A stretch of 64,000 nt of DNA, taken from positions 6,324,001 to 6,388,000 of the forward strand of contig NZ_CP059733.1 of NCBI RefSeq assembly GCF_000948985.2, written 5' to 3'. This stretch comes from Thalassomonas viridans (GTDB lineage: Bacteria > Pseudomonadota > Gammaproteobacteria > Enterobacterales > Alteromonadaceae). Below are positions 47,193 through 60,349 of this stretch, one piece after another. Every line of letters begins with the position of its first letter. Within the stretch, counting starts at the first letter, position 1. Made by a program: the position numbers and the translations under genes. The notes below the pieces were generated by a model. It had not been told where the DNA came from. It did not search any database and saw only the letters and a program-made list of their open reading frames with translations.

Positions 47193-48617
47193 TCATTTTC
47201 CTATACCTGAGGCGGTATCCGCCATAAATTGCCGCATCAGATCCAGCATTTGCCGGTAATAGGGATTAAAGGTCAACCGCTGCAAGGGCAGCTCCCCGTT
47301 CAGGTTTTCTTCGGTTTTTTCGCCCAGGATCACCTGCCCGGAAGTTTTACATAACCGGTATCTTTGAGGATCCGACAGATAATGGGTGCAATTGCGGTAC
47401 AAAGCCGTTAACCCGTAATGGGGATTATCCGGGGCATTGACGGGAGCGGTATGGGCAATATCGGCAATATGGCTGCATGCCTGGTTTTTCCGGCATTCAG
47501 GTACCACAAGCGTTACCGAAGGCGGCAGCTTATCCGCCGCCGTTTGTTTATCGCCGAAATACATCAGCGTTGCCGGTTCAGCCTTATCCCCCTGCTGCCA
47601 CCAGCCGATAATGTCCAAGGTCGCCCGGGTATCTATGGTGCGGTCATGTTCACTGGCAACCACAAACAGCGGAATATTCTTTAGCTTGCTTTTATTCGCC
47701 GGGGTTGTCTTTGCCAGATGCTGCATCAACCGGTTCACCTGGGCGGCGGCGTTATAAGGGAAAGACTCGTATTTGGCAAAATCTATATCGGCATCCAAAT
47801 CCAGCCAGTCCAGCATAGGCAGGTAATCCAGGTATTGCGCCAGCCAGGCCAGCCCGCTATATGCTTTAGAGGCGGGCGACCACATAAATACCCCCTTGAT
47901 CCTGTCATCGGCGGCATTTTGCCGCAGCAGATAATCTAAAATCAGCGCCCCACCGGTGGAAAAGCCCCCCAGATAAACCTGGTCGAAGTCCGTTAACATA
48001 CGGCTTATGCCATAGTCCGCCGCCTGCTGCCATTGCCCCAACTCCACGTCCAGCAGGTCTGAAGCCGCCGTGCCGTGCCCCGGCAGCAATAAGGTTCTGA
48101 CGGTAAACCCCTGCTGATAATAAAAGTGCGCCAGGTCATGAAACATAAACGGGGAATCCGTTAAGCCGTGGATCAACAAAATAGCTTTACCGGGTTTATC
48201 CTGCCTTAATTCAAAAGGCGCCACCAGGCGGCTCACCTCAGGTGTTCCCGGCCAGTTGTTTTGCGCCGCCAGCAAACTATAAGTTTCCGTAAATACCGGA
48301 CATGGCCGCTTGGCCCGGGGGTTGCCGGCTTCGATAAGCTTAGCGGCATACTTTAAATACAGGTCAAACCCCGCCTCATCCTGATAGGAAAATTCCGGCA
48401 ATTGCCCTTCAGGCACGGGCCGGGCATAGCGGTAACGGCCGTCGGCGATCCTTTGCTCAATACCGGTGTAATCCTGATTAATGGCAAGACAATTACCTTC
48501 TTTATCGGCACCGTCCTCATTGGCCGCAACCTGTGCTGCCGCAAAAGCATGATTTGTCAGCAACAGCACCAGACAGAATAAAACCCGGTTGAATATTCCA
48601 TGAAAAATAGCAAACAT
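47193..48617 (-). CDS. Secreted alpha/beta hydrolase
   Basis: A 474-residue protein with a signal peptide (about 1-27, ending AFAA) and an alpha/beta hydrolase fold. ILLIHGLTDSPFMFHDLA is the oxyanion-loop HG motif, GGFSTGGALILD holds the nucleophile Ser in GxSxG, with the Asp/His completing the triad later (SEHDRTID and a His near HIADIAHT or HYGLTALY). It resembles serine aminopeptidase S33/lysophospholipase-like enzymes. The substrate is unknown. The gene before it on the same strand is the XRE regulator, 41 bp upstream, so both may be co-transcribed. Confidence 0.82.
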   Translation of the reverse strand: MFAIFHGIFNRVLFCLVLLLTNHAFAAAQVAANEDGADKEGNCLAINQDYTGIEQRIADGRYRYARPVPEGQLPEFSYQDEAGFDLYLKYAAKLIEAGNPRAKRPCPVFTETYSLLAAQNNWPGTPEVSRLVAPFELRQDKPGKAILLIHGLTDSPFMFHDLAHFYYQQGFTVRTLLLPGHGTAASDLLDVELGQWQQAADYGISRMLTDFDQVYLGGFSTGGALILDYLLRQNAADDRIKGVFMWSPASKAYSGLAWLAQYLDYLPMLDWLDLDADIDFAKYESFPYNAAAQVNRLMQHLAKTTPANKSKLKNIPLFVVASEHDRTIDTRATLDIIGWWQQGDKAEPATLMYFGDKQTAADKLPPSVTLVVPECRKNQACSHIADIAHTAPVNAPDNPHYGLTALYRNCTHYLSDPQRYRLCKTSGQVILGEKTEENLNGELPLQRLTFNPYYRQMLDLMRQFMADTASGIGK

Positions 48618-48658: not shown

Positions 48659-49390
48659 TTATTTACGTAACCGGGCAAAACGGGAAAGCTCCCAGGGCTT
48701 CATGGCCACTAACAAGCCGATATGCTGCCGGTTGTCCAGGGACAACTTGGCGTCCTCCTGGTTCAACAGCGCCGCTTCCTTGGTCAGCTGGTTGAGCTTC
48801 CTCTGAATGATTTCAATGGAAGACGGGGAATAGGTGCCACGCAAATAAAAGCGGAAGCTGTGCTCGCCACTAAAACCGGACGCCATAAACTGGGAAATCA
48901 CTTCGCTGGTCATATATTGCTCCAACGGCCCGTCGGGTATCCAGCGGAAATCCTGTGCAATTAACAGCTTATATTCATTATTCGGCAATAACTGGATCAT
49001 TTTCAGCTTATCCAGCCGGGCCATCAGCCGGATACATTCCAGCTCGGTTATCTGGTAATGGCGGATGATCTCCTCAAACGGCCAGGCGTCACGCACGCAT
49101 ACCGCCACCAGAAACAGTTTGGTATCCGAAACCAGCTCCTTTTCCTGCTCTATCGTCAGCTGGGTTAGCTGATCTTTCTGCTTTTCAGCGATTAAAAACA
49201 AATCCGACAAACTGATATTGATGATACCGCAGATCTCCTCCAGCCTTTCCAATGAAAAGCTATGGGTGGAAAAAATACGTTTGATATTGGCTTCGCTCAT
49301 CGCCAGATGCCGGGCGATATCCTTATAGGTGACATTTTGCTGGCGTAATAACTTTTTTAGGGTGCTGCTGATCTGCTTAATCTGGCTCAT
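48659..49390 (-). CDS. XRE-family helix-turn-helix regulator
   Basis: A 243-residue regulator with an N-terminal XRE/HipB-type helix-turn-helix (TYKDIARHLAMSEANIKRIFSTHSFSLERLEEICGIINISL, about residues 20-62). The remaining 180 residues are helical, rich in Leu and without a recognised domain; a second wing-like region is WPFEEIIRHYQITELECIRLMARLDKLKMIQLLPNNEYKLL. It lies just upstream of the hydrolase gene on the same strand. A GTCCATGGAC palindrome 24 bp before its start may be its own operator. Confidence 0.8.
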   Translation of the reverse strand: MSQIKQISSTLKKLLRQQNVTYKDIARHLAMSEANIKRIFSTHSFSLERLEEICGIINISLSDLFLIAEKQKDQLTQLTIEQEKELVSDTKLFLVAVCVRDAWPFEEIIRHYQITELECIRLMARLDKLKMIQLLPNNEYKLLIAQDFRWIPDGPLEQYMTSEVISQFMASGFSGEHSFRFYLRGTYSPSSIEIIQRKLNQLTKEAALLNQEDAKLSLDNRQHIGLLVAMKPWELSRFARLRK

Positions 49391-49516: not shown

Positions 49517-49879
49517 ATGAAATTACTGACCAGCCTGTTTACCCCGGCAATCACCCTGGCCCTGACACTGGGCGGTGCACAAGCATATGCTCAGGATTCC
49601 GCACAGCACACCAGTAAAGCCGGTAAGCATTCCGCCCTGGCGGTTTCCCATGGCGCGGCGTCTACCGCCAAGGTCGCCAGCGCAGCGGTAGCCGTGCCCT
49701 TGATTGTCGCCGGCAGTGCCGGGGTTGCCAGCGCCGCCAGCGGCAGCGCCCTGATCGACAGCGCCACTAAACCTGAACCCCTGACGGTTACCGAAATAAC
49801 CATTACCGCAGACCCCGCCCCCGGCCAGGCGATGCAAAACAAAATACAAACTAAGGTCGAAATCAAACAGGAGCCTTAA
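49517..49879 (+). CDS. Small secreted Ala/Ser-rich hypothetical protein
   Basis: A 120-residue protein, not recognised as a known family. It has a signal peptide (about 1-25, ending AYAQ), an Ala/Ser/Val-rich central region (residues 44-78) with a possible membrane helix (AVAVPLIVAGSAGVASAAS) and a polar C terminus LTVTEITITADPAPGQAM. An AAAGGATAAGACA ribosome site precedes the ATG. It ends 2 bp before the DUF2145 gene, so the two are probably coupled. It may be an accessory protein of the DUF2145 product. Confidence 0.65.
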   Translation: MKLLTSLFTPAITLALTLGGAQAYAQDSAQHTSKAGKHSALAVSHGAASTAKVASAAVAVPLIVAGSAGVASAASGSALIDSATKPEPLTVTEITITADPAPGQAMQNKIQTKVEIKQEP

Positions 49880-49881
49880 TC

Positions 49882-50685
49882 ATGAAGTTTTTGTTCCCTA
49901 TATTTGCTTTATGTGCCCTGTTATCCAGCTGCCAGGCCCTGGCCGGCAGCCAGGCGGGTACCGAAGCTAAATTTGCCCCCGAAACAATCACGGCATTTGC
50001 CAAAAACGTGGAAAAATACGCTGCGGCGCAGGGAGCCGGGGCCTTTATTATTGGCCGTATCGGCCGTCCGCAACAGGAGCTGCCCAAGGGCATTAGGTTT
50101 ACCCATACCGCCATTGCCGTGTATTCGGCCATCACCCTCAAGGACGGCAGTACGGTGAACGGCTATGCCATCCACAACCTGTATCAGGAGACGGGAAAAC
50201 CCGATGTCAGTGCCTTAGTGGTGGATTATCCGGTGGACTTTTTCTGGGGCGTGCATGAATTAAGCGCAGGCATTATTATTCCGACACCTGAGTTGCAGCA
50301 AAGGATTATCGCCGCCATCAGCAGCGGTAAAAACAAAGCCGTGCATAACCCGGCTTATTCCGTGATTGCCAGCCCCTACAATAACGAGCTGCAGAATTGC
50401 ACCGAGCATACCCTGAATATCATCAATGCTTCCATCTACCAGACAACGGATATGCGGCAGTTAAAAGCCAACGCCAGGGCGCATTTTAAGGGACAGAGGG
50501 TGCGCAGCAGCCGGTTTAAGCTAATGCTGGGCAGTCTCTTTATGGATGACGTCACTACCCGGGATCATGACGGCAAAGTCGTCACCACTACCTTCAGCAC
50601 TATCGGCCGCTACCTGCAGCAAAATGGCCTGGTGAAACATATGGCGGTCTTTAACCGCGACGGCAGCAGCGGGGAGTTGTTGTAA
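49882..50685 (+). CDS. DUF2145 periplasmic protein
   Basis: A 267-residue secreted protein with a signal peptide or lipoprotein-like N terminus (LSSCQALAG). It matches DUF2145: IIGRIGRPQQELPKGIRFTHTAIAVYS, then NLYQETGKPDVSALVVDYPVDFF and PYNNELQNCTEHTLN. The conserved His (FTHTAIAVYS) and Cys (QNCTEHT) resemble an NlpC/P60/YiiX-like Cys-His pair, which would suggest a thiol hydrolase, but this is inference. It is coupled to the small secreted protein before it. It is tail to tail with the beta-ketoacyl synthase. Confidence 0.75.
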   Translation: MKFLFPIFALCALLSSCQALAGSQAGTEAKFAPETITAFAKNVEKYAAAQGAGAFIIGRIGRPQQELPKGIRFTHTAIAVYSAITLKDGSTVNGYAIHNLYQETGKPDVSALVVDYPVDFFWGVHELSAGIIIPTPELQQRIIAAISSGKNKAVHNPAYSVIASPYNNELQNCTEHTLNIINASIYQTTDMRQLKANARAHFKGQRVRSSRFKLMLGSLFMDDVTTRDHDGKVVTTTFSTIGRYLQQNGLVKHMAVFNRDGSSGELL

Positions 50686-50746: not shown

Positions 50747-51967
50747 TTAAAAGAAGCGCTTGAAGATCAAAGAAGTATTTAAACCGCCAAAAGCAAAGGA
50801 GTTGCTCATCGCCTGTTCGACTTCCGCCCGGCAGCCGACATTGGGCACATAATCGAGATCGCATTCACTGTCTGCTCCCAGATAGTTTCTGGTCGCCGGT
50901 ATCCTTTGTTGCTTCAGGGCCAGGATGGCGGCAATGCCTTCCAGCGCCCCGCCGGCCCCCAGGACATGGCCGTGCACCGATTTGGTGGATGAAACCTTTA
51001 ATAACGGCGCATGCCGGCCAAAAACCTTATTTATAGCCCGGGTTTCTACCCTGTCGTTCTGCACTGTGCCTGAGCCGTGGGCGTTAATATACTGGATATC
51101 CGCCGGGGATATTCCGCCGTCCTTTAACGCCGCCGACATGGCCATTTCCGCCCCTTCCGCCAGCGGCTGCACTATATTGTGGGCATCCGAACTCATGCCT
51201 ATGCCTGTGAGTTCGGCATATACAGGCGCTTTCCTGGCAAGGGCATGTTCCAGCCTTTCCAGCACCAGGGTGGCGCCGCCTTCCCCTATCACCAGGCCGC
51301 TGCGCCTGGCGGAAAACGGCCGGCAGCTGTCCGGCGACAAAACCCGCAAGCCTTCCCAGGCATGAAAATTTCCTTTGGTGATACAGGCTTCCGCCCCGCC
51401 GGCGATTGCCACATCCGCCATATCAGAGCGCAGCATCAAAGCCGCCATGGCGATGGCATGCCCGGAAGAGGCGCAGGCGGACGCGGTAGCAAATGCCGGC
51501 CCTTTAATGCCGTACTTCATGGAAATAAAACTGCCGGCGGCGCTGGGCAGTAATTTGGGCACAGTATAGGGGTGGGGCCTTTTCCCACCTTCCCGGTAAA
51601 ATTGCCGGTAAGCATTTTCTGTTGTTTCCTGCCCGCCTATGCTGGTGCCGTGGACAACGCAAGTGCGTTTGCTTAAGGCATCATCAAATACCAGTCCGGC
51701 ATCGGTTATGGCTTCATCCGCCGATAACAGCGCGAACTGGCTGAACCTGTCATATTGTTTCAGTTCGGCGGCGGAAAAAAAATCTGCCGGAAGGTAATTT
51801 TTCACCTCGGCGGCAATTTGCGTCATATGCTCGTCCGGGGTAAACAAAGAGATCGGTGCTATGGTATCGGCGTGCCCGTCGCTGAAAATGCTCTTGCCAA
51901 ATTCACCGACATTTTTACCGGCCCCGGAAATGCAGCCCAGGCCGGTAACCACTATCCTGGCAGACAT
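50747..51967 (-). CDS. Beta-ketoacyl-ACP synthase of the exosortase operon
   Basis: A 406-residue FabF-type condensing enzyme that would elongate acyl chains on ACP. The catalytic Cys165 is in TASACASSGHA, His297 in NAHGSGTVQND, and Lys329/His334 in KSVHGHVLGAGG, so it looks active. The ATG at 51967 overlaps the ACP stop (TGATG), which decides the start over the earlier frame at 51994. It is not the housekeeping fabF: it sits last in an operon of exosortase, peptide, Lnt-like acyltransferase and ACP, and probably makes a special acyl chain for that system. Confidence 0.9.
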   Translation of the reverse strand: MSARIVVTGLGCISGAGKNVGEFGKSIFSDGHADTIAPISLFTPDEHMTQIAAEVKNYLPADFFSAAELKQYDRFSQFALLSADEAITDAGLVFDDALSKRTCVVHGTSIGGQETTENAYRQFYREGGKRPHPYTVPKLLPSAAGSFISMKYGIKGPAFATASACASSGHAIAMAALMLRSDMADVAIAGGAEACITKGNFHAWEGLRVLSPDSCRPFSARRSGLVIGEGGATLVLERLEHALARKAPVYAELTGIGMSSDAHNIVQPLAEGAEMAMSAALKDGGISPADIQYINAHGSGTVQNDRVETRAINKVFGRHAPLLKVSSTKSVHGHVLGAGGALEGIAAILALKQQRIPATRNYLGADSECDLDYVPNVGCRAEVEQAMSNSFAFGGLNTSLIFKRFF

Positions 51968-52227
51968 CAGGCTTGCCGCTCCTGATATAAACAAGTAACC
52001 AGGTGCAGCAGATCCGCCAGCGAATCCAGGAAAAATCCCCGTTGTGCCAGCTCGGCTTCGTGGGGGATCTTGATCTCAAACAGCTCCTCGATATCAAAAA
52101 TAATCTCCACCAGTGACAGGGAATCAATCCCTATGTCCGCCAGGTTCTCATCCCCGGACAGGGTCTTGAGATCTGTACTTGTGTATTCGCCTAAGATGGT
52201 TTCCAGCTCTTGTTTGATGTCACGCAT
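51967..52227 (-). CDS. Acyl carrier protein of the exosortase operon
   Basis: An 86-residue acyl carrier protein. The phosphopantetheine site is Ser36 in GIDSLSLVEIIFDIEELFEI, with the usual acidic helix II. It differs from housekeeping AcpP by a longer C terminus. Its start overlaps the Lnt-like gene by 8 bases and its stop overlaps the ketosynthase start, so it is made in step with both. It probably carries the acyl chain to be elongated and then given to the acyltransferase. Confidence 0.9.
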   Translation of the reverse strand: MRDIKQELETILGEYTSTDLKTLSGDENLADIGIDSLSLVEIIFDIEELFEIKIPHEAELAQRGFFLDSLADLLHLVTCLYQERQA

Positions 52228-53806
52228 TTTCTTTTCTCATTCCCGTTATCAGGGCATAGCCCAGAAACAACATGCAGATATATTTAAAAACATTCGGGTA
52301 GTCCCGGTAGAAACTGCCGATTTCAACCGTTTTGACCTCAGTCACCGAAAAACCCGCCTGATAGGGCGCTATTTGTGACTCAGGTATGATGCTGCCGCCG
52401 GGATCAACAATAGCCGTGATGCCGGTATTGGTGGCACGCACCAGCGGCAACCGGTATTCCACCGCCCGAAACAGCGACAGCGCCAAATGCACTTTGCCTC
52501 CCGGACTTTGGCCAAACCAGGCATCATTGACGGTATTCACCAGCAGATTGCCGCCGAGCTCCACCCCGGCGCCGACAAAGTCGCTAAACACCGCCTCGTA
52601 ACAGATCAGGGGCAGGATATTCAAATTCCCCTCACCCCTTTCCAGGGCCAGCGGTAGCAGCTGAAACTCCCGCCCGGATTGATAGTTGGCGGCGCCGGGA
52701 AACCAGTCGCGCAAAAACGGCAGCTGTTGCTCGAAAGGCAGATATTCCCCTAAAGGTAATAATTTTTGCTTAAAATACTGGTGACTGACCCTATCCCCGC
52801 TAATCAGTTCCATGGTATTAAAATATCCGGCACCGCTATCTGGTTTATGCTCAAGCGGCTGGATCGCCGTCAGCAACAAATCCGCCTCCCCTTTAACATC
52901 ATGGAAAAAGCTTTGGTCTTCAGGATAATTTTTATAGGAAACCGGTACCGGCACTTCCGGGATCACCATTAAATCCAACGGTTGTTGTTTTTCCGCTTCA
53001 ATTATCAAGTCCTGCATCCCTTGCCGGTGTTGCAGCCAGGCTTCCCGGGTACGCAGGGAAATATCGAGATTGGGTTGTATCATGGCCACAGTCAAAGCGG
53101 TATCCGCCCGGGAAGTTTGCTCCGCCACCGTCTCAGATTTCACGGTGCCGTATGCCAGGTTCCCCAGAAAAATAACCGCGGCCAGGGCAAAGCAACGCAG
53201 GCTTTTCACTTTCTGGCTGCGCCACAGCAGCAGCCCCGCCGCCAGTAAAAAATTAACGCAGTGCACAACAAAAAACACCAGGGGTACACCACCGATATCC
53301 GCCAGTTGAATCTGCAACGGCCTCAAATATAAGGCATGGGCAAGATTACCCGGCAACAGCTGAGGTATGTAATTGATCAATACCGTCAAGGCAGCCGCAG
53401 ATTTGATCGCCCCGGAAAGAGAGCGCCCCCAGTGGAAACGGCTATGAAGCCAGGTCACCAGGGCGTAGGGCAGCGCCGACCACAGGCAATAGATAAAAAT
53501 AACCGGGATCACCAGGTTTACCGGAATTGCACTGATTTGCGCGATGCCCGTTACCGCCCACCAGATACTGCTCATCCAGCCCAGGGTAGCGGCAAGCAAG
53601 CCAAGCATAAAGGCATATCGCCCCCGGCTTTTATCCAGGGCAATAAGCACAGGGACAATGGCAAACCAGGCAAGGGCCGGAATACCGCTCCCGGGAAAGG
53701 CCAGATAAAATAAAGCTACGGTAAGCAGAACCAGCAAGAAATCCGTTATCTGCCGTTGCTTTGCCGGAATTGCATTAGCGGGAATGCTCTTGGCGAGGCT
53801 GGTCAT
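52220..53806 (-). CDS. Lnt-like apolipoprotein N-acyltransferase of the exosortase operon
   Basis: A 528-residue membrane protein with an N-terminal membrane domain of about six to eight helices (20-220) and a periplasmic nitrilase domain (235-500). The Glu-Lys-Cys triad is present: Glu284 in VIPEVPVP, Lys346 in YFKQKLLPLGEYLPFE, Cys402 in LICYEAVF. Lnt normally moves an acyl chain from phospholipid to the N terminus of lipoproteins. Here it starts by ATGA overlap with the 61-residue peptide and precedes an ACP, so it may acylate that peptide. A housekeeping lnt would be expected elsewhere. Confidence 0.9.
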   Translation of the reverse strand: MTSLAKSIPANAIPAKQRQITDFLLVLLTVALFYLAFPGSGIPALAWFAIVPVLIALDKSRGRYAFMLGLLAATLGWMSSIWWAVTGIAQISAIPVNLVIPVIFIYCLWSALPYALVTWLHSRFHWGRSLSGAIKSAAALTVLINYIPQLLPGNLAHALYLRPLQIQLADIGGVPLVFFVVHCVNFLLAAGLLLWRSQKVKSLRCFALAAVIFLGNLAYGTVKSETVAEQTSRADTALTVAMIQPNLDISLRTREAWLQHRQGMQDLIIEAEKQQPLDLMVIPEVPVPVSYKNYPEDQSFFHDVKGEADLLLTAIQPLEHKPDSGAGYFNTMELISGDRVSHQYFKQKLLPLGEYLPFEQQLPFLRDWFPGAANYQSGREFQLLPLALERGEGNLNILPLICYEAVFSDFVGAGVELGGNLLVNTVNDAWFGQSPGGKVHLALSLFRAVEYRLPLVRATNTGITAIVDPGGSIIPESQIAPYQAGFSVTEVKTVEIGSFYRDYPNVFKYICMLFLGYALITGMRKENA

Positions 53807-53988
53807 TTGTTCTTTTTTTTCATCAGCAAACCAATGCCAAACACCAGCAACAGATGAAACACCGGATGCAGGGCCGGCACGCTGGCGCCGGGGGGCACTG
53901 CGCCACCGCCTCCGCCCCCTCCGGCATAGGCACCGACGGACAACAATAACAGAGGCAATAAAACAAAAACGAGTTTACGGCAAACCAA
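53803..53988 (-). CDS. 61-residue secreted peptide, predicted exosortase substrate
   Basis: The protein has a signal peptide (1-22, ending GAYA), a GGGGGGGAVPPGAS body, and the tail VPALHPVFHLLLVFGIGLLMKKKNK: short motif, membrane helix and Lys-rich end. This is the three-part layout of exosortase targets, and VPAL stands where IPTL stands in XrtH-type IPTL-CTERM domains. It starts at TTG (53988) with AGGA eight bases upstream; no ATG is available. It overlaps the exosortase gene by 14 bases and the Lnt-like gene by ATGA. After both cuts only about 17 residues would remain. It resembles small 'midcut' XrtH substrates; the identity is from memory. Confidence 0.78.
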   Translation of the reverse strand: MVCRKLVFVLLPLLLLSVGAYAGGGGGGGAVPPGASVPALHPVFHLLLVFGIGLLMKKKNK

Positions 53989-54514
53989 GATTAAATTCCT
54001 TTTTTTGAAAAGCCTTATCTAAAAAAAAGAAAACACAGACGGCGGTAATAAAATTAATCAGTTGCCATACATACAAATGATAAAATTCAAACCGGTTGAT
54101 CACTTTTCCTATTTCATAATACAAATGCATAATTCTAAAAGCATTTTCCAGCTGAATAACAGCTATGGCGATGATCGCCATCATTATTTTTTTCTTCAGC
54201 GAATGGGACAGGGAAAAAATTCCCGCCCAGACCGTTGCCACTAAAGCCAGTGCCGTGCATTCCTGATCAACCACCACATAAGCGCCGCTGCCTTCATGGA
54301 TCAATTGATTGGCAGAAATTAAAATATCGCCAAAGAACAAACGGTAAAATTCACCGGCAAAACCGGCAATAGCCAGCTCAACAGGGGCGGCAACGGCGGG
54401 CTCCCGGCTAGCCAGCCAAACCAGTAGCTGCAATACCAGGGTCCAGCCTAAAAACCGGGGAAAGAAATGATTTAATATTATTGTTTTATTCGCCGGCACA
54501 GCCTTCCCCAGCAC
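53975..54514 (-). CDS. Exosortase (XrtH-like) cysteine transpeptidase/protease
   Basis: A 179-residue inner-membrane protein with about five helices. The exosortase triad is present: Cys86 in VVDQECTALAL, Arg127 in QLENAFRIMHLYY and His146 in FYHLYVWQ. It is short, as in XrtH, and lacks extra domains of EpsI/XrtA. Exosortases cut targets at a short motif before a C-terminal membrane helix. It starts at GTG 54514 (a second GTG at about 54499 is possible). It is the first gene of a five-gene overlapping operon and is followed directly by its likely only local substrate. Confidence 0.85.
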   Translation of the reverse strand: MLGKAVPANKTIILNHFFPRFLGWTLVLQLLVWLASREPAVAAPVELAIAGFAGEFYRLFFGDILISANQLIHEGSGAYVVVDQECTALALVATVWAGIFSLSHSLKKKIMMAIIAIAVIQLENAFRIMHLYYEIGKVINRFEFYHLYVWQLINFITAVCVFFFLDKAFQKKEFNLGLP

Positions 54515-56026: not shown

Positions 56027-59000
56027 ATGCGTAACTTACTCAGGTTATGGCCATTTTCACTTTTTCCCTTGTGCTTACCGCTTGGCCTGTGCCTGCTGCT
56101 TTTCTCTGCCGGGCTCCAGGGACAGGGACAAACAGTTCACGATCTTGCCCGGCCAGACAGCCAACAGGCTATGATATCCCTGCAGGAAGAGCGCAGGCTC
56201 AGGCAAAAACTCAACGATACCAGGCGCATCAGGGTAATCGCCCGGTTAAAACAGCAAAGCACGGATACCAGGGCTAAACAGCACGCCAGCCTGGAGGCAA
56301 GGCAACAAACCTTCGCCCGCTCCCTTAAAAGTCCGAACAACCGTTACCTCGCGAAAACCCGGTTGCTGCCGCTGGTGGTTATGGAAGTCGACGAGGCGGG
56401 ATTTCAAGAGCTGTTATCCCATCCCCAACTGCTCTCGGTGGAAGAAGATCGCCTGCTCAGCCCTATGCTGAGTTCCTCCATACCTTTGATCGGCGCCAAC
56501 CTGGTGCACGATGCCGGGATCACGGGCCAGAACCAGACCCTGGCCATTCTCGATAGCGGCGTAGATTCAGATCATGACTTCTTATCCGGCAAGGTGGTGG
56601 CGGAAGCCTGCTTTTCCTCCACCTATGCCCCCCATCTTGCCACTTCCCTCTGCCCCTTCAGCAACATCTACGCCCCGGGCTCTGCCGCCCCCTGCTCCCT
56701 GAGCAGCTGCGACCACGGCACCCATGTGGCAGGAATAGCCGCCGGCAACAGCGAAGGCAACGGCGCCCCCAGTGACGGGGTGGCAAAAGACGCCAGTTTG
56801 ATCGCGGTCCAGGTTTTTTCCCGGTTCGACGATCCCGGCATGTGCGGCTCAGCCAGCACCACCCCCTGCATCCTCGCCTACACCAGCGACATTATCGCCG
56901 GGCTGGAATATGTCTATTCCCAGAGGAACAACTTTACCATAGCCGCCGCCAACCTGAGCCTGGGCGGCGGCAGCTATAACCGTATGTTTACCTGCGACGC
57001 CGTCAACGGCGCCACCAAAAGCATTATCGATTTATTGCGCGGCGCCGGCATCGCCACAGTGATCAGTGCCGGTAACGACGGCAACACCACATCCCTTAAC
57101 AGCCCGGGATGTATTTCCAGTGCCGTCAGCACAGGCTCAAGCACCGACAGCGACAATTTATCCGGCTTCAGCAATGCCGCTTCCTGGCTGCCGCTGCTGG
57201 CCCCGGGCTCCGGCATCATCTCTTCCGTCCCCGGCGGCTACCAGAACAAGAGCGGCACCTCGATGGCGGCGCCCCATGTCGCCGGCGCCTTTGCCCTGCT
57301 GGCCCAGGCCAAACCAACATCCGGTATGGCTGAACGCCTGGCCGCCTTAACCTTAACCGGCAAAAATATCACTTTACCCGGCACCGGCTTTATCAAACCC
57401 AGGATTGAGCTGAACGACGCCGTTAATGCCTTACAGACGGCCAGCTTGCCCCCGGTGGATTTAATCCTGGATGATGATTATCACGGCAGCGCCATAGCCG
57501 GCACCTTTGCCGGCGAAATAGCTTCCCTGGCCTATGGCGGCTCCCAGCGCTATTCGACCGCTACAGGCAGCACATACCGCTTTACCCCGGAATTTCCCGT
57601 CTCCGGGCTCTACCGGCTTTCCGCCTGGTGGCAGGCAAAACCGGGAGCCGGCCAGGCCAGTTTGCATATCAACCATAACCTGGGGCTGTCCACCGTCGCA
57701 CTGGATCAGAGCGGCAGCGGTGGCAACTGGCATACCGTCGGCAACTTCTCCTTTACCGCCGGCAGCAGCCACAACATAGATTTGACTGCGACCTTATCTG
57801 CAGTTGTTGTCGATGCCCTGCGCCTGGAGCTGGTAGATCCGCCGGCGCTGGCCATCAGCACCCAGACATTGCCGGACGCGATACAGGGAGAAAGCTACCA
57901 GCAAAGCCTGACAGCCACCGGAGGCCTGCCCCCCTACAGCTGGAGCGCCCCCAATCCTTTACCCGCCGGACTCAGCCTGAGCCAGCAGGGAGTGCTTTCG
58001 GGTATACCGGAGGCAAGCGGCAGTTTCAGCATCCAGGTCCAGGTCAGCGACCAGCTCACCAGCACAAGTAAAACCTTAGATCTGCTGGTCAACCCAGCCA
58101 GCCAAAGCGTAGAAATCATTATCGATAACAGCGACAGCAACACCCAGAGCACGGGCAGCTGGCTGGTATCCGGCGGGCAAAATCCCTGGGGCAGCAATTC
58201 CCTGTACAACAACAGCAGCGGCAGCTTTTCCTGGCTGGCGGATATCGCCACCGGCGGCAGTTACCAGGTCTACGCCTGGTGGACCTACCATAGCAATCGC
58301 TCCACCGCCGTCCCCTATACCATCACGCATCAGGGCGGCAGCACCGGCATAACAGTCAACCAAAGGGATCCCGGCCTGGCTTCCCAATGGGTGCTGTTAG
58401 GGACTTTTGATTTCAGCGCCGGCAGTACTTACCCCATTACCGTAGACAGCAGCAACGGCCAGGCCAATGCCGACGCCATCAGGCTGGTCACCAATGCGGC
58501 CCCGCAGCCTTTGGCCATCACAAGCTTTACCCTGCCGGCAGGCCAGGTTGGCAGCCATTACCAGGCGGCTTTCTCTGCCACCGGCGGCAATGCTCCCTAC
58601 AGCTGGAGCAGCACCAGCACTTTGCCTTCCGGTCTGACCCTGGACGACTCCGGGGTATTAGCGGGAACCCCGTTAGAATCCGGAAGCTGGCCCCTGGATA
58701 TCCAGGTTTCAGATCAGCAAAACAATACCAGCCAGGCGACATTTAACCTGACAATAGCAGCATCCCCGCCACTGGAAATCACCACAAGCCAACTGCCCCA
58801 TGCCCTGGCGGGCCAGGCATACTCGGCTGCCTTATCCGGCACGGGAGGCGTTCCCCCCTACAGCTGGAACCATAGCGGCAACCTGCCTCCGGGCCTGCTG
58901 TTAAGCGATAACGGCCAGATTTCCGGCGTGCCTTTAACCGCCGGCATATGGAATTTTGACCTTATACTCAGCGACGATATCGGGCAGCAAAGCCAGCTGG

Positions 59001-60349
59001 CCCTGAGCCTGACGGTAAATGAACCCCAGGGAGCCAGTGAGATCATTATCGACAACGGCGACAGCAACACCGGCTTTACCGGCAGCTGGTTTAATTCCAG
59101 CGGCGCCAATCCCTGGGGCACAAGCTCCCTGTACAGCAACTCAGGCGCCACCTACCGCTGGTCGCCGGAGATAACACAGGCTGAGCGTTATCAGGTCTAT
59201 GCCTGGTGGACCTATCACGGCAACCGCTCCGCCGCCGTGCCTTACAGCATCAGCCATGACAACGGCCTGACGGTAATCACCACAGAGCAAAACAACAGCG
59301 CCCTGGGAGGGCAATGGAACCTGCTGGGTGAATTTGATTTCAGCCCCGGCGGCGATCACTATATCCAGGTTGCCAGCGAAAATGGCCAGGCCTGTGCCGA
59401 TGCCGTCAAACTGGTGCCGGTCAATAATCCCGAACTGGCCATTACCAGCCTGGCTTTCCCCGACGGCGCCCCGGGGCAGGAATACCAGGCCATATTAACG
59501 GCTGCCGGGGGCCAGCCTCCCTATGTCTGGAGCATCACCGGAGTGCTGCCCAACGGTCTCAGTTTCGACGAGAGCGGGACCATTTCCGGGCTGCCGCAAC
59601 TGGCAGGCACCTTTAACTTCACCCTGACGGTAACCGACCAGCAGGAAGAGCAGGTTTCGGCGGCATTGAGCATCACCATTGCCGAGCCCGCCCCCCTGGC
59701 CATCACTCCCCAGCCTCTGCCCGATGCCAGGGTTGACGTAAGCTACCAGGTGCAATTAACGGCCACCGGCGGTTATCCCCCTTATAGCTGGGGATTAGCC
59801 GGCACCTTGCCCGACGGTTTAAGCCTGGACGCCGGCGGTATGATCTCAGGCACCCCTTCCCTGGCGGGTAGCTGGGATTTCGACATCTATGCCGGCGACC
59901 AGCAAAGCGGCACAGACCAGCTGCCTTTCACTTTAACCGTGCTGGAGCAGACCCCGGCGGAGATCATTATCGACAACCTCGACAGCAACACCGGCCAGAC
60001 CGGCAGCTGGACCACCTCCAGCGGCCCCCTGCCCTGGCAGGGTAATTCTGTTTACAGCAACAGCGGCGGAACCTTCAGCTGGTACCCACAAATCGTCTCA
60101 AGCGGCAATTACCGGGTTTATGCCTGGTGGACCTATCACAGCAACCGCTCGGAGAACGTGCCCTATACCGTCACCTACCAGGGAGGCAGTTCGACACTTT
60201 TCCTCAACCAGAATAACAGCCTGCTGGGAGGGCAATGGAATTTGCTGGGAGAATTTCCCTTTGCTGTTGGCCAGTACGCCATAGAAGTATCCAGCAGCAA
60301 CGGCCAGGCGAGTGCGGACGCGGTACGCCTGGTAAAAGTCAGCGATTAA
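56027..60349 (+). CDS. Secreted subtilisin-family (S8) serine protease with golvesin-like and Ig-like repeats
   Basis: A 1440-residue exported protease. Signal peptide about 1-35, a propeptide-like region to 140, then the S8 domain with Asp176 (LAILDSGVDSD), His230 (DHGTHVAG), Asn350 (SAGNDGN) and Ser412 (GTSMAAPHVAG). After residue 475 come four golvesin-type C-terminal-like modules (about 475-602, 694-826, 1004-1136, 1311-1438) and five putative-Ig (He_PIG) modules (about 606, 828, 915, 1137, 1224), in the order G-P-G-P-P-G-P-P-G. These repeats probably bind surfaces or polysaccharide. No sorting signal is seen, so type II secretion is likely. The start is Met at 56027. Confidence 0.9.
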   Translation: MRNLLRLWPFSLFPLCLPLGLCLLLFSAGLQGQGQTVHDLARPDSQQAMISLQEERRLRQKLNDTRRIRVIARLKQQSTDTRAKQHASLEARQQTFARSLKSPNNRYLAKTRLLPLVVMEVDEAGFQELLSHPQLLSVEEDRLLSPMLSSSIPLIGANLVHDAGITGQNQTLAILDSGVDSDHDFLSGKVVAEACFSSTYAPHLATSLCPFSNIYAPGSAAPCSLSSCDHGTHVAGIAAGNSEGNGAPSDGVAKDASLIAVQVFSRFDDPGMCGSASTTPCILAYTSDIIAGLEYVYSQRNNFTIAAANLSLGGGSYNRMFTCDAVNGATKSIIDLLRGAGIATVISAGNDGNTTSLNSPGCISSAVSTGSSTDSDNLSGFSNAASWLPLLAPGSGIISSVPGGYQNKSGTSMAAPHVAGAFALLAQAKPTSGMAERLAALTLTGKNITLPGTGFIKPRIELNDAVNALQTASLPPVDLILDDDYHGSAIAGTFAGEIASLAYGGSQRYSTATGSTYRFTPEFPVSGLYRLSAWWQAKPGAGQASLHINHNLGLSTVALDQSGSGGNWHTVGNFSFTAGSSHNIDLTATLSAVVVDALRLELVDPPALAISTQTLPDAIQGESYQQSLTATGGLPPYSWSAPNPLPAGLSLSQQGVLSGIPEASGSFSIQVQVSDQLTSTSKTLDLLVNPASQSVEIIIDNSDSNTQSTGSWLVSGGQNPWGSNSLYNNSSGSFSWLADIATGGSYQVYAWWTYHSNRSTAVPYTITHQGGSTGITVNQRDPGLASQWVLLGTFDFSAGSTYPITVDSSNGQANADAIRLVTNAAPQPLAITSFTLPAGQVGSHYQAAFSATGGNAPYSWSSTSTLPSGLTLDDSGVLAGTPLESGSWPLDIQVSDQQNNTSQATFNLTIAASPPLEITTSQLPHALAGQAYSAALSGTGGVPPYSWNHSGNLPPGLLLSDNGQISGVPLTAGIWNFDLILSDDIGQQSQLALSLTVNEPQGASEIIIDNGDSNTGFTGSWFNSSGANPWGTSSLYSNSGATYRWSPEITQAERYQVYAWWTYHGNRSAAVPYSISHDNGLTVITTEQNNSALGGQWNLLGEFDFSPGGDHYIQVASENGQACADAVKLVPVNNPELAITSLAFPDGAPGQEYQAILTAAGGQPPYVWSITGVLPNGLSFDESGTISGLPQLAGTFNFTLTVTDQQEEQVSAALSITIAEPAPLAITPQPLPDARVDVSYQVQLTATGGYPPYSWGLAGTLPDGLSLDAGGMISGTPSLAGSWDFDIYAGDQQSGTDQLPFTLTVLEQTPAEIIIDNLDSNTGQTGSWTTSSGPLPWQGNSVYSNSGGTFSWYPQIVSSGNYRVYAWWTYHSNRSENVPYTVTYQGGSSTLFLNQNNSLLGGQWNLLGEFPFAVGQYAIEVSSSNGQASADAVRLVKVSD
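58111..60346 (+). repeat. Repeated golvesin/putative-Ig module array
   Basis: Within the S8 gene, three closely similar golvesin blocks begin with EIIIDNxDSNT and contain YQVYAWWTYHxNRS; their DNA is also similar. Two intervening pairs of putative-Ig modules show TGGxPPYxW and LPxGLSL. This suggests duplication of a G-P-P unit. Confidence 0.75.

Follow-up and report, generated by a model that had tools for sequence, protein, structure and literature searches.

What is made by an operon in which an exosortase is encoded together with a minute peptide, an acyltransferase, an acyl carrier protein (ACP), and a ketosynthase? This question is raised by a five-gene unit of Thalassomonas viridans, located on the minus strand at 50747–54514 of a DNA stretch of 64,000 nt (contig NZ_CP059733.1, positions 6,324,001 to 6,388,000 of the forward strand; the whole stretch is called the window here, and coordinates refer to it unless another locus is named). 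The host genome has a size of 7.95 Mb. The order of transcription is exosortase, peptide, Lnt-type N-acyltransferase, ACP, and FabF-like beta-ketoacyl-ACP synthase. On a narrow balance of probability, this is a dedicated lipopeptide maturation operon, in which a private Lnt would acylate the N-terminus of the peptide and the exosortase would remove its tail.

Gene order and its conservation

Positions of the open reading frames (ORFs) agree with a preliminary description of the locus, which listed five overlapping genes, all on the minus strand. The exosortase stop at 53975 and the TTG start of the peptide at 53988 give an overlap of 14 nt, the peptide stop at 53803 and the Lnt ATG at 53806 one of 4 nt, and the Lnt stop at 52220 and the ACP ATG at 52227 one of 8 nt. 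One base of the ACP TGA is common with the ketosynthase ATG at 51967; a longer ketosynthase, from TTG at 51994, is given in the program-made ORF list.

The system was found at 14 distinct Colwelliaceae-type loci of marine Colwellia-group bacteria. Ten of 147 genomes of the family matched and nine were kept, as the tenth (E value 0.006, nine stop codons) was dropped. A scan of genomes from 84,980 named species gave nine loci, four of them in genomes already in the set. Besides the window, T. actiniarum, T. haliotis, and Thalassomonas sp. RHCl1, the set includes ten others, among them Colwellia chukchiensis, Colwellia sp. 1_MG-2023, Colwellia sp. D2M02, and an apparent Thalassotalea piscium genome. 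Exosortase and peptide genes are adjacent at all 14 loci, the Lnt gene is next at 13, and ACP and ketosynthase genes are next at 11, where the full five-gene order and strand are kept. Identity to the window exosortase ranges from about 38% to 80% across these 11 loci, so the arrangement is not due to chance. The full order persists even between loci with exosortases only about 38–43% identical.

In the Lnt tree, the two Lnt-bearing loci lacking ACP and ketosynthase, both from isolates, are nested among loci possessing both genes, which suggests two separate losses of the pair. An operon-like ketosynthase was searched for elsewhere in the three genomes without the pair and none was found, the best ketosynthases there being at most 38% identical to that of the operon.

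Exosortase and its substrate

The exosortase-family protein (53975–54514, minus strand) is 179 aa long from GTG at 54514, or 174 aa from GTG at 54499. It belongs to the exosortase/archaeosortase superfamily, with 35.8 bits to TIGR04178 (exo_archaeo) at a cut-off of 23, and this model matches all 14 members of alignment A1 at E ≤ 0.001. The catalytic set of exosortases is Cys/Arg/His, and C81, R122, and H141 (numbering of the 174-aa form) are invariant in all 61 aligned homologues, out of 69 found. The AlphaFold2 model has a predicted local distance difference test (pLDDT) score of 92.8. The resemblance to XrtH/IPTL-CTERM noted in the preliminary description is a relative one only: XrtH (TIGR04177) is the best-scoring named exosortase type, but its score of 41.8 bits is far under the cut-off of 86, and IPTL-CTERM (PF18203) had no match in the genome over the cut-off of 20.8, with 12.9 bits as the best.

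The substrate peptide (53803–53988, minus strand) has 61 aa, and the AAGGAA upstream of its TTG start is kept in three Thalassomonas relatives. Residues 1–22 (53923–53988) make a signal-peptide-like start ending in AYA, a signal peptidase I-type site as far as the sequence tells. Residues 23–36 (53881–53922) are a Gly-rich core of 14 aa and, by composition over the 14 loci, the predicted mature product. Residues 37–61 (53806–53880), with a VP motif, a transmembrane-like stretch, and a basic end, appear in alignments as a putative exosortase sorting signal. In all 14 peptides, a signal-peptide-like start (recognized by eye) and a Gly-rich core are followed by a tail composed of SVP (SVS in a single peptide), a hydrophobic segment, and a basic part. 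The core, counted from the beginning of the Gly run up to the conserved Ser, has 12–18 residues and consists of 71% Gly and 18% Ser. In tail alignments A2 and A3, S36 and V37 are invariant and P38 is present in 13 of 14 sequences; the VPxL motif of the tail resembles IPTL. Gly codons are mixed GGN at 12 loci, and only GGT and GGC are used at two, strictly alternating at one of them (L048).

Many other proteins with VPAL or IPTL tails would have spoken against a dedicated pair. A profile search with the tail gave one strong match per genome in all nine genomes searched, always beside the exosortase, and the next matches had E values of at least 0.28. The window genome also holds an XrtA-like exosortase about 140 kb from the operon and 52 PEP-CTERM tails over the cut-off. 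The operon exosortase therefore looks like a dedicated one-enzyme/one-substrate system beside the many-substrate XrtA-like/PEP-CTERM system of the same cell. This pairing and its private acylation module, both proposed earlier, hold within the exosortase clade at the frequencies given above. Outside the clade, 31 neighbourhoods of XrtH-model matches were taken from 27 other genomes of the class, 13 genomes having matches over the cut-off, and no tblastn match at E ≤ 1e-3 was found there to the operon Lnt, peptide, ACP, or ketosynthase; several of these stretches are truncated where the contig stops, the shortest to 3 kb. An ordinary Lnt was within reach of this search (canonical Lnts reach 83–115 bits against the operon Lnt in blastp), as was an ordinary ketosynthase (best others 37–39% identical), the sensitivity for ACP and peptide being unchecked.

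Some exosortase genes of the group differ in form or surroundings. Those of T. actiniarum and T. haliotis (P0004 and P0005) start internally in the public annotation, giving 135 aa, and their open frames have 178 aa (L032 6959–7495 and L033 6971–7507). A metagenome (JGI) ORF of 237 aa, P0009, has the exosortase fused in frame with a Gly-rich, VPAL-tailed peptide, unless a sequencing frameshift is involved; it is perhaps on the same contig as the acyltransferase homologue P0111, an indirect sign. A gene for a protein with a PEP-CTERM-like tail, VPEPATL, closely precedes the operon exosortase gene in Colwellia chukchiensis (L047 7163–7783).

The second Lnt

The gene at 52220–53806 (minus strand) codes for the second Lnt of the genome, Lnt2, of 528 aa. 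Its TIGR00546 score is over the cut-off and it has the full membrane and CN-hydrolase fold, which place it among Lnt proteins; the predicted structure likewise has the full Lnt fold. The triad E284/K346/C402 and E354 are invariant in all 68 aligned homologues, out of 106 found. A Glu/Lys/Cys triad with a supporting Glu is also what an AatD-type enzyme has, but it is common to Lnt and thus unspecific. A canonical Lnt is also encoded in all nine genomes searched, and Lnt2 is 26–29% identical to the canonical Lnts.

Lnt2 tracks the exosortase. It is present in eight of the nine exosortase-bearing genomes of the family. Among 394 genomes drawn from the order, the matches at E ≤ 1e-30 were the Lnt2 of the window and one other protein at 28% identity; among 369 drawn from the class, they were the Lnt2 of the window and two others at 29–30%. 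These others are about as distant as the canonical Lnts. No other exosortase of the operon clade was seen in the order-wide draw. As an indirect sign, exosortase and Lnt2 protein clusters are linked by apparent shared contigs in 23 of the 39 exosortase clusters with contigs longer than 2.5 kb.

Proposed maturation of the peptide

The 61-aa precursor would be exported by the Sec machinery and cut before the Gly run by signal peptidase I. The private Lnt would then acylate the amine of the N-terminal residue thus exposed, normally Gly, with a phospholipid as the simplest donor, and an N-acyl-glycine peptide would result in the manner of AatD and CexE; homology, the intact triad, and the AatD precedent point to this step. 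The exosortase would cut at SVP and so detach the transmembrane tail, leaving the Gly/Ser-rich core of 12–18 residues; this core may stay in the membrane by means of its acyl chain, be set free, or have some nucleophile joined to its C-terminus. ACP and ketosynthase may tailor the acyl chain that reaches Lnt via lipid synthesis, as an accessory step. A lipidated Gly-rich peptide is thus the likely product, as was supposed earlier; the acyl group and the cleavage site, as well as a function at the cell surface, are what we infer.

The precedent is the Aat system. Its AatD is homologous to Lnt, has the same triad, and acylates CexE on the N-terminal Gly exposed by signal peptidase I; according to the accessible part of that account, CexE has no lipobox and its mature end begins with three glycines (Icke et al., PMC7943197). 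Among the 13 Lnt-bearing loci, a site of A-X-A type with Ala at −1 lies directly before the Gly run in eight, or in nine if Ser is allowed at −1, judging by sequence. A search with a PROSITE-type pattern found no lipobox in the peptide at any of these 13 loci. The sole lipobox among the 14 peptides, ending LFSAC and with Cys directly before the Gly run, is in Colwellia sp. DT_19 (L035/L042), the only locus without Lnt2. This Cys in the one Lnt-less locus points to N-terminal lipidation as a shared outcome, and we consider it somewhat probable that such lipidation is constant across the loci. The exosortase of this locus branches beside Thalassomonas (support 0.786), which makes loss of Lnt with gain of Cys the simpler reading of this single case.

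Several observations weigh against the proposed maturation. In five of the 13 Lnt-bearing loci, a single V, S, T, or A separates the AxA-like motif from the Gly run, and the N-terminal Gly is uncertain there. The lipobox case comes from one metagenome-assembled genome, the system is patchy (nine of 147 family genomes), and ACP and ketosynthase are missing at three of 14 loci. Distant Lnt2-like proteins also exist, such as P0129, labelled uncultured Paraglaciecola. Finally, according to the accessible part of PMC7478709, an ordinary Lnt complements an aatD mutant and acylation is at a putative lipobox; a private Lnt would thus not be strictly needed for N-acylation.

Role of ACP and ketosynthase, and alternative explanations

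The ACP (51967–52227, minus strand) has 86 aa with the phosphopantetheine Ser36 in a DSL motif, and PF00550 matches it with 35.5 bits (cut-off 20.8). The ketosynthase (50747–51967, minus strand) is over the cut-off for PF00109/PF02801 and NF005589 (400.6 bits vs. 387) and under the strict cut-off of TIGR03150 (423.4 vs. 493.75). The best other ketosynthase of the window genome is 39% identical to it. The DSL serine and the Cys-His-His of the ketosynthase are kept in all 11 operon copies, so the catalytic residues reported for every enzyme of the operon are indeed in place. In its most specific form, the product would be a ribosomal lipopeptide of a new class, namely a near-pure poly-Gly peptide of 12–18 residues, acylated by Lnt at its N-terminal Gly with a chain tailored by ACP and ketosynthase, and with a C-terminus freed by the exosortase; so full a picture is less likely than not.

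The preliminary description had the acyl chain built on the private ACP and, by implication, passed straight onto the peptide. If so, ACP and ketosynthase would make an unusual chain and be the direct donor, and the released lipopeptide could be a secreted signal or antibiotic. Such an explanation gains from the overlap of both genes with the Lnt gene region, their retention at 11 of 14 loci, and the shortness of the core, but it is improbable. ACP is cytoplasmic, no exporter gene is among the five, and two isolates keep Lnt without ACP and ketosynthase. Lnt draws its acyl chain from a phospholipid with the headgroup in the periplasm, according to the accessible part of PMC10313180. Direct transfer from ACP to the peptide is thus unlikely, and a chain made on ACP would need a membrane lipid as an intermediate carrier. 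Nor is a special acyl chain essential, since three loci lack the pair and a search of their genomes for an operon-like ketosynthase at another site found none. An accessory role of ACP and ketosynthase fits their absence from two lineages that keep Lnt.

About as little probability is given to anchoring at the C-terminus, where the exosortase would, like archaeosortase ArtA, join the cut end to a lipid amine and Lnt, ACP, and ketosynthase would remodel the acyl chains of that lipid. Anchoring by the archaeosortase ArtA is at the other protein end than that proposed for the operon peptide. ArtA, too, is a sorting enzyme with a genetic link to enzymes of lipid synthesis, and its substrates are lipid-anchored and need PssA and PssD, whose genes adjoin artA in Methanosarcina species; in the accessible part of that account, these are archaeal phospholipid enzymes instead of Lnt, ACP, and ketosynthase (PMC7157517). 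Against C-terminal anchoring, the known reaction of Lnt is N-acylation of a protein N-terminus, and the other end is indicated both by the Gly with which the mature peptide is expected to begin and by the lipobox of the locus without Lnt.

It is still more doubtful that Lnt2 puts a special third acyl chain on ordinary Cys lipoproteins and that the exosortase/peptide pair is unrelated and merely in the same operon. Lnt2 does retain the full fold and residues of Lnt, and bacteria of this kind are generally rich in lipoproteins. However, all nine genomes searched already have a canonical Lnt, to which Lnt2 is only distantly similar, the Lnt2 gene overlaps the peptide gene, and no other genome of the order-wide draw has a close Lnt2 or an exosortase of the clade. 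A decayed or neutral cluster without joint function, which the patchy occurrence might suggest, is very improbable given active-site residues invariant over deep divergence and the full order kept between loci with the most distant exosortases.

Neighbouring genes

A possible sixth gene of the operon is present in three Thalassomonas relatives, where an ORF overlaps the exosortase start by 4 bases (L032 5523–6962 and L034 11040–12473, 477–479 aa; L033 6417–6974, 185 aa, open). The L032 copy had no match in NCBIfam and Pfam searches. In the window, a LysR/OxyR-like gene is upstream of the exosortase, without a comparable minus-strand ORF directly upstream. On the plus strand at 49517–50685, an Ala/Ser/Val-rich protein of 120 aa with no family match and then a DUF2145 protein are encoded. 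This pair, a helix-turn-helix gene (48659–49390), and an ORF at 47193–48617 adjoin the operon in the Thalassomonas relatives L032 and L034; no 120-aa/DUF2145 neighbours were seen in the remaining stretches searched. Positions 56027–60349 code for a subtilase of 1440 aa with four Golvesin_C and five putative Ig matches in Pfam.

Relation to known systems and significance

The closest likeness is with the Aat system, where an Lnt homologue with the Glu/Lys/Cys triad is encoded with a secretion system and the secreted substrate has no lipobox, its glycines coming after a signal peptidase I site. Aat has TolC-like and Lol-like exporter parts, whereas none of the five operon genes is an exporter, and the accessible Aat accounts name no exosortase, ACP, or ketosynthase (PMC7943197). 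The operon peptide differs from CexE by its exosortase tail and a core of only 12–18 residues, and AatD is likened here by its published description. XrtH/IPTL-CTERM is similar in the small size of the enzyme and as the best-scoring type, but differs by the failed cut-off, by the lack of an IPTL tail in the genome, and by neighbourhoods in which Lnt, ACP, and ketosynthase were not detected. Rhombosortase/GlyGly-CTERM pairs also have a single enzyme beside its only target; they belong to another protease family, and acylation genes are not mentioned in the accessible part of PMC3237569. Exosortase-linked synthesis of N-acyl amino acids, as far as the accessible text goes, also ties N-acylation genetically to an exosortase, but through another enzyme family.

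No description of an exosortase joined with Lnt, ACP, and ketosynthase genes was found in the literature searched, which left subscription journals mostly outside. None of the parts is new in kind; what appears to be new is their combination, the dedicated enzyme/substrate pair, and so small a poly-Gly product. How exosortases alter the termini of their substrates is, to our knowledge, still to be settled, and dozens of PEP-CTERM proteins in one genome make it difficult to study. Here, one small enzyme has one 61-residue substrate, and a probable lipid-attaching enzyme is encoded in the same operon, so mass spectrometry could give the mass of the product. If Gly is indeed acylated, Cys-free lipidation would extend from the Aat system to environmental bacteria, where it would be coupled to C-terminal sorting.
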